Positions 48,677-50,392 of a DNA stretch of 64,000 nt are shown piece after piece. Below the pieces are notes generated by a model. That model saw only the letters and a program-made list of their open reading frames with translations, ran no database searches and was not told the origin of the DNA. Numbering within the stretch: the stretch's first letter is position 1; every line of letters begins with the position of its first letter. A program made the translations under genes and the position numbers. Source of the stretch: Methylomonas sp. Its GTDB lineage: Bacteria; Pseudomonadota; Gammaproteobacteria; Methylococcales; Methylomonadaceae. The stretch spans positions 28,917-92,916 of the forward strand of contig PESC01000012.1 of assembly GCA_002929135.1 (NCBI GenBank). The letters are read 5' to 3'.

Positions 48677-48888
48677 GTCGATATCTCTTGTGTGTTGTTG
48701 TATCCAAATTCGGCAGAAGAGCGCTAACGATGTTGCCGATGAGTTAATAGTTGGCCAACTTAGGTAATGCTGATGTCATCATCGGTTGACAATGGCGGAT
48801 GACGGGCCGATTGCCGATACACTAGAATGGCCACTGCACACGACAAGCCTGTCACCATTGAAATTTCGCCCATTTTCAGCAGACTAAG

Positions 48889-49007
48889 GATTCGGTCATA
48901 AATAACATCGCTGTCTATCGGCCTCACCCCAACCCTCTCCCGAAGGGGAGAGCGAAGCGAGGGGGGGCGAAGCCGAGGATAATGTGGATGTTATTTATGA
49001 CCGAATC
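48889..49007. mobile_element. MITE-like element 1, 119 bp, perfect 21-bp terminal inverted repeats, flanking CTAAG direct repeats
   Basis: gattcggtcataaataacatc (48889-48909) / gatgttatttatgaccgaatc (48987-49007); ctaag at 48884-48888 and 49008-49012; internal ctctcccgaaggggagag hairpin. Confidence 0.85.
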
Positions 49008-49096
49008 CTAAGTGCTCGAAAAGCCGGTATTCGATGGCTTAACATTAAACCTGAAACATGACGCGCCACATCAACCACGCTGGGAGAGATAGAACC

Positions 49097-50392
49097 ATGG
49101 CTGACAATTACATATCCTTGACCAAGGATGATTCATCGCAAGCGCAGCAACTGCCGATTCTGTCGGGTACTTTGGGGCCTTCTGTCATCGATATTCGCGC
49201 ACTGTACGCCCAGACGGGCCACTTTACCTACGACCCCGGCTTCACATCGACGGCCAGTTGCAGTTCCAAAATCACCTTTATCGACGGCGATGCCGGCATA
49301 TTGCTGTATCGCGGTTATCCGATCGAACAACTGGCGGAAAAATGCGACTTCCCTGAAGTGTGTTATCTGCTGCTCAACGGCGAGCTGCCGAATGGGGCGC
49401 AAATGCAGGAGTTCGTCACCCTGACCAGCCAGCACGTCATGGTGCATGAGCAATTGACCCGGTTTTACAGTGGCTTCCGCCGGGATGCGCATCCGATGGC
49501 GGTATTGGTTGGCGTGGTTGGCGCCTTGTCGGCGTTTTATCACGATGTGATGGACATCACCCGCAAGGAAGACCGCTACCTCTCCGCCATTCGGCTGATC
49601 GCCAAAATGCCGAGCATCGTCGCGATGTGTCACAAATACAGCACGGGTATGCCGTTCATCTATCCGAAACGCAAGCTGGGCTACGTCGAGAACTTCATGC
49701 GCATGATGCACGGCGATCCGTGCGACGATTATCAAGCCAATCCGGTACTGGCGCGCGCCCTGGATCGCATCCTGATCCTGCATGCCGATCATGAACAAAA
49801 TGCCTCGACCTCGACTGTGCGTCTGGCCGGTTCCAGCGGTGCCAATCCCTATGCCTGCGTGGCGGCCGGTATTGCTTGCCTGTGGGGCGCTGCACATGGC
49901 GGTGCCAACGAGGCGGTGTTGAACATGCTGGAAGAAATCGGCGACGTATCGCGCATTGGCGAGTACGTTGCCAAAGCCAAGGACAAAAACGACCCCTTCC
50001 GTTTGATGGGCTTTGGTCATCGTGTCTACAAAAACTACGATCCGCGTGCCCGGCTGATGCGCCAGACCTGTCACGAAGTGCTGGATGAGCTGAACCTCCA
50101 CGATGATCGCTTGTTCAAGCTGGCGATGGAGCTGGAACGCATCGCACTGGAAGACCCGTACTTCATCGAGAAGAAGCTTTACCCCAACGTTGACTTTTAC
50201 TCCGGCATCGTATTGCGGGCACTGGGCATTCCAACCGAAATGTTCACCGCGATTTTCGCCCTGGCGCGTTCAGTGGGCTGGATTGCGCAATGGGACGAAA
50301 TGATCGCTGACCCCGAACTGAAAATTGGCCGCCCACGCCAGTTGTACCGGGGCGTGGCTATGCGCGACGTCAAACCCGTTTTTGCGCGGTAA
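49097..50392 (+). CDS. gltA: Citrate synthase (type II-like)
   Basis: [96 protein letters not shown]. Confidence 0.96.

Follow-up and report, generated by a model that had tools for sequence, protein, structure and literature searches.

A miniature inverted-repeat element with ISAzo13-type ends in the probable 5' leader of the citrate synthase gene gltA of a Methylomonas genome

Overview

The short inverted-repeat element just upstream of gltA in the Methylomonas genome analysed here is very probably a miniature inverted-repeat transposable element (MITE) whose ends belong to the insertion sequence (IS) family ISAzo13, and which most likely lies as a transcribed hairpin in the gltA 5' leader, apparently without having brought a new promoter. 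A preliminary description of this DNA had proposed a non-autonomous transposable element. This reading is borne out by dispersed copies, terminal inverted repeats (TIRs), 3-bp target site duplications (TSDs) and an IS with matching ends in relatives, and it is further supported by the absence of the element from orthologous gltA loci and by the exact empty site of a related element. The MITE family is real, new and related to ISAzo13, and it is ordinary in kind; literature searches on the core sequences, on MITEs in Methylomonas and on ISAzo13 in combination with MITEs yielded no description of such elements.

Structure and boundaries of the element

The MITE occupies positions 48888-49008 of the window (the whole 64,000-nucleotide stretch of DNA that was analysed). 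It is 121 bp long, runs from GGATT to AATCC and ends in 22-bp TIRs (GGATTYGGTCATAAATAACATC), as delimited by the sequence itself, a repeat finder and comparison with other copies. The left TIR (GGATTCGGTCATAAATAACATC) lies at 48888-48909 on the plus strand and the right TIR, its exact reverse complement, at 48987-49008 on the minus strand, both being recovered by the repeat finder and by an end-pattern search. The element had been described as a 119-bp unit flanked by CTAAG and ending 84 bp ahead of gltA; such a unit is present, but its boundaries had to be corrected from the other copies. The 21-bp inverted repeats reported for it are exact (GATTCGGTCATAAATAACATC at 48889-48909 on the plus strand and 48987-49007 on the minus strand, with zero mismatches), and this inverted match was obtained in none of 100 shuffles. 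The repeat finder lengthens the arms to 27 nt (48883-48909 and 48987-49013, 96% complementary). CTAAG does stand on both sides (48884-48888 and 49008-49012), but not as a 5-bp duplication: the flanks of other copies show that it consists of a 3-bp TSD, TAA, at 48885-48887 on the left and 49009-49011 on the right, with the C and G lying outside the duplication.

The palindromic core of the MITE (CCTCACCCCAACCCTCTCCC...GGGAGAGCGAAGCGAGG...GCGAAGCCGAGG, 48922-48980) is related to free-standing repeats elsewhere in the genome. It contains, as first described, the central hairpin CTCTCCC-GAAG-GGGAGAG (48935-48952, plus strand), which is evident from both the sequence and the fold. The MITE strand folds with a predicted energy of -76.4 kcal/mol (z = -10.2 against shuffles), and the fold of the whole gltA leader has a z of -6.4. 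An Rfam search returned nothing beyond one chance match below threshold.

Copies and target preference

The genome that carries the element is a draft of the genus Methylomonas (2.57 Mb in 63 contigs, 96% complete). A 129-bp query retrieved from it five more full-length copies that are 76-91% identical to the one at gltA, as well as half copies and numerous matches confined to the core. The six full-length copies, including the one at gltA, measure 117-121 bp apart from one of 99 bp, and are accompanied by decayed pieces. An end-pattern search of the same genome allowing up to three mismatches gave 22 TIR matches, against 0 for a control pattern; the TIR search suggested at the outset found other copies both in this genome and in relatives. 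An exact scan for the 22-bp TIR in genomic and viral contig collections gave no match, the ends in relatives being off by 1-3 bases.

Identical 3-bp flanks are present at all six full-length copies (TAA, TTA, TAA, TTA, TTG and TTA) and at 49 of 62 distinct MITE insertions across loci, nearly all of them TWA. The target consensus over these 49 insertions is ACTWAGT, and 16 have exactly CTWAG, which indicates that the two extra bases reflect a target preference; judged from these flanks, the outer C and G are part of a preferred palindromic target, (A)CTWAG(T). Some insertions regenerate a stop codon: among 50 TAA-facing flanks, 7 (L008, L028, L091, L103, L112, L201 and L242) have a long open frame that terminates at the duplicated TAA, compared with 3 of 100 for the other frames.

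Position within the probable gltA leader

The gltA gene (49097-50392, plus strand) encodes a citrate synthase of 431 aa (PF00285, TIGR01798), with a good ribosome-binding site at the start codon at 49097: GGGAGAG (49082-49088, plus strand) lies 8 nt before the start, and a GGAG-type site is conserved in orthologues. Several orthologues share a layout in which GTTRACAATG is followed, after 28-29 nt, by AATAGAAT approximately 50-60 nt ahead of the start codon. In the window, the corresponding GTTGACAATG block is located at 48785-48794 (plus strand), while TAGAAT at 48823-48828 (plus strand), a consensus match conserved as AATAGAAT in most orthologues of the genus, is the putative -10 box of the ancestral gltA promoter, an assignment made by homology only.

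TAGAAT forms the -10 part of the sole consensus sigma-70-like match in the region, and the same scan gave no promoter match within or after the MITE. The earlier suggestion that the MITE may supply the gltA promoter is not supported, as the only such match lies upstream of the MITE and its TAGAAT is conserved at orthologues. Because the conserved box precedes the insertion, the MITE most likely lies inside the transcribed 5' leader, between the promoter and the gltA start codon. The MITE ends (49008) 88 bp before the start codon, with the ribosome-binding site about 70 nt downstream of that end. Even with the MITE subtracted, about 146 nt of leader separate the -10 box from the start codon, whereas relatives have about 50-60 nt there. 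The remaining segments (48829-48884 and 49012-49081) thus leave a leader some 85-95 nt longer than in relatives, which implies that another change has also lengthened the region. Elsewhere, the same genome has a further citrate synthase gene (G000:C32:14050-15312) with 58% identity to gltA; two such genes are present in most genomes of the genus.

The proposed course of events begins with an ISAzo13-type transposase that would have recognised both 22-bp ends in trans. Insertion would then have taken place in the TAA of a CTAAG target with duplication of 3 bp; the resulting structure is directly visible, and the mobilisation in trans is the presumed part. The landing site would be the gltA 5' leader, 3' of the conserved promoter, so that a long hairpin, its stem exceeding 30 bp, would be expected near the 5' end of the gltA mRNA. 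The consequence is expected to be neutral to modest, with the hairpin acting as a candidate RNase III substrate or changing leader stability. The predicted fold of the MITE RNA suits RNase III cutting, and cleavage of the TIR stem would be the most plausible molecular effect. The MITE apparently brings in no new promoter; any effect on gltA would be post-transcriptional or neutral.

This possible activity is analogous to that of the Correia elements of Neisseria, which are likewise short, carry TIRs and often lie just upstream of genes, and whose transcripts fold and can be cut by RNase III at the TIRs (PMC10969869). The TIR and core sequences of the two are unrelated, however, and Correia elements provide outward promoters, none of which was detected in the MITE. 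Co-option of the MITE for gltA regulation, whether by an outward-facing end that supplies or boosts a promoter or by the hairpin serving as a regulated attenuator or processing site, would agree with its site just ahead of a central metabolic gene, with the very stable RNA hairpin and with the promoters or RNase III sites that other MITEs supply (PMC10969869). It is nevertheless considered improbable, as the MITE has neither a sigma-70-like site in or after it nor a terminator-like U tract, the conserved -10 box lies upstream, and the insertion is known from one genome only, which leaves selection without support from conservation.

Relationship to ISAzo13

The ISAzo13 family comprises prokaryotic relatives of the eukaryotic Zator elements. 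The full-length IS sought for the MITE was found in relatives in the form of ISAzo13-family elements with near-matching ends: pairs of nearly identical ends 1.3-1.5 kb apart bracket a transposase of this family, which matches the profile NF033519 with 414 bits (cut-off 200) and also PF07592. The IS ends, such as GGATTCCGTCAAAAATAACTTC or GGATACGGTAATAAATAACTTC, deviate from the end consensus of the MITE family at 3 of 22 bases; the best of them differ from the ends of the gltA MITE itself at about three positions (approximately 19 of 22 matching). Independent IS copies share the same end consensus, GGAT...AAATAAC.TC, and are flanked by TAA or TTA on nearly all sides, the two sides being equal in most (TAA/TAA or TTA/TTA). 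This is in line with the 3-bp TSDs reported for ISAzo13 elements (PMC10045372). The MITE thus has in common with these IS the 22-bp end consensus and the 3-bp TWA duplication, whereas at 121 bp and without a transposase it shares nothing but the ends, as is typical of a type II MITE.

ISAzo13 transposases were present inside the examined IS-length elements with such ends in several genera, including Methylomonas, Methylobacter and Polaromonas. One of them, from a related genome of the same genus (G015), is 100% identical to a transposase on NZ_LUUI01000168.1 (Methylomonas lenta R-45370). Several ISAzo13 copies (L217, L222, L226, L235 and L236) have unequal flanks, TTA at one end and TAA at the other, which may result from recombination between copies. 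At three loci (L109, 324-1554; L110, 584-1790; L173, 1489-2695), the transposase is split over two overlapping frames, and their overlap contains a conserved GTCCGAAAAAAAAGG run, an arrangement that suggests frameshifting or transcriptional slippage.

The draft genome that contains the gltA MITE (96% complete) gave no match to the PF07592 transposase profile; the mobilising enzyme there must therefore be inferred or has been lost. Possibly the local MITE copies are stranded by now; alternatively, the IS may be missing only from the draft assembly. An autonomous partner in the same genome is not a strictly defining criterion, since partners can be lost. An IS fragment behind one local copy (L010/L041, G000:C17:59545-59944) was considered as an autonomous parent and rejected, because its left end also occurs alone, without a MITE end, at two other places (G000:C42 and C51); this copy has been broken by an unrelated IS that inserted into it, and the contig end falls within that IS.

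TNA duplications of 3 bp are likewise known from the IS1031 group of IS5. A parent from such a family with a 3-bp TNA target, instead of ISAzo13, would account for the duplications, and the genome itself lacks a parent; it is very unlikely, however, given that the examined IS-length elements between such ends hold ISAzo13 transposases in several genera.

Mobility and the empty site

Insertion accompanied by a 3-bp duplication is demonstrated directly by a related element of 258 bp in another methanotroph genus (L198 in genome G118, flanked by TTA/TTA), the same flanks of which are joined at a single TTA in two other genomes (G146 and G061). The gltA MITE is absent from every orthologous gltA upstream region read in the genus; the nearest relatives reach at most 90% protein identity, and their leaders have diverged too far for an exact empty site to be delimited. 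The empty-site comparison called for in the preliminary description therefore succeeded for the related element, and at gltA it yielded absence at diverged orthologues. A non-mobile nature, with the sequence being a REP/BIME-type repeat, a terminator or another long palindrome between genes, would fit the many free-standing occurrences of the core (CCTCACCCC...GGGAGAG), yet it is extremely unlikely and is contradicted by the perfect TIRs, the TSDs at all six full-length copies, the ends in common with ISAzo13 and the exact empty site of the relative.

Distribution and interchangeable cores

Of 301 genomes in the order, 29 contain the MITE end when up to two mismatches are allowed, and each of five near-complete genomes from a single other genus has 29-64 end matches (both strands together). 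All-against-all BLAST grouped the 52 elements read with identical 3-bp flanks into ten core clusters, an approximate number since two small clusters are single elements, one of these being short. The ends are near-invariant at GGAT, G8, AAATAAC and TC, and the cores cannot be aligned between clusters. Most cores are palindromic repeats, and the core of the gltA MITE also occurs alone many times in its own genome. Six MITEs (L090, L093, L112, L190, L198 and L280) illustrate the same ends around differing palindromic cores, for example CCCCCTTTGAAAAAGGGGGATCGAGG, CCGTTCGTCCTGAGCTTGTCGAAGG, GTTCCCATGCTCCGCGTGGGAA and AGACCTACGAGGTTTT.

In type II prokaryotic MITEs, such as the QMITEs of Coxiella and Chunjie of Geobacter (PMC10969869), the ends are likewise retained while the core is not, and decayed copies also resemble palindromic repeats. 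What differs here is that one set of ends surrounds about ten unrelated palindromic cores within a single bacterial order. It can tentatively be proposed, as a rather unlikely but consequential extension, that numerous unrelated palindromic repeats (about ten core types within this order, at least one of them also free-standing in the same genome) have been mobilised by a single set of ISAzo13-type ends and that capture of palindromes by ISAzo13 is a general route of their spread.

Significance

For ISAzo13, a little-studied IS family, these results add a large number of methanotroph MITEs as partners, together with a clear target rule for ISAzo13-type MITEs (ACTWAGT, with TWA duplicated). The gltA leader offers a natural test case for the effect of a long transcribed hairpin on a central metabolic gene. 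Furthermore, the combination of common ends and interchangeable palindromic cores is relevant to how common intergenic hairpin repeats spread; if capture by ISAzo13 is indeed such a route, it would carry these repeats from one bacterial genome to another and into gene leaders, that of gltA among them.
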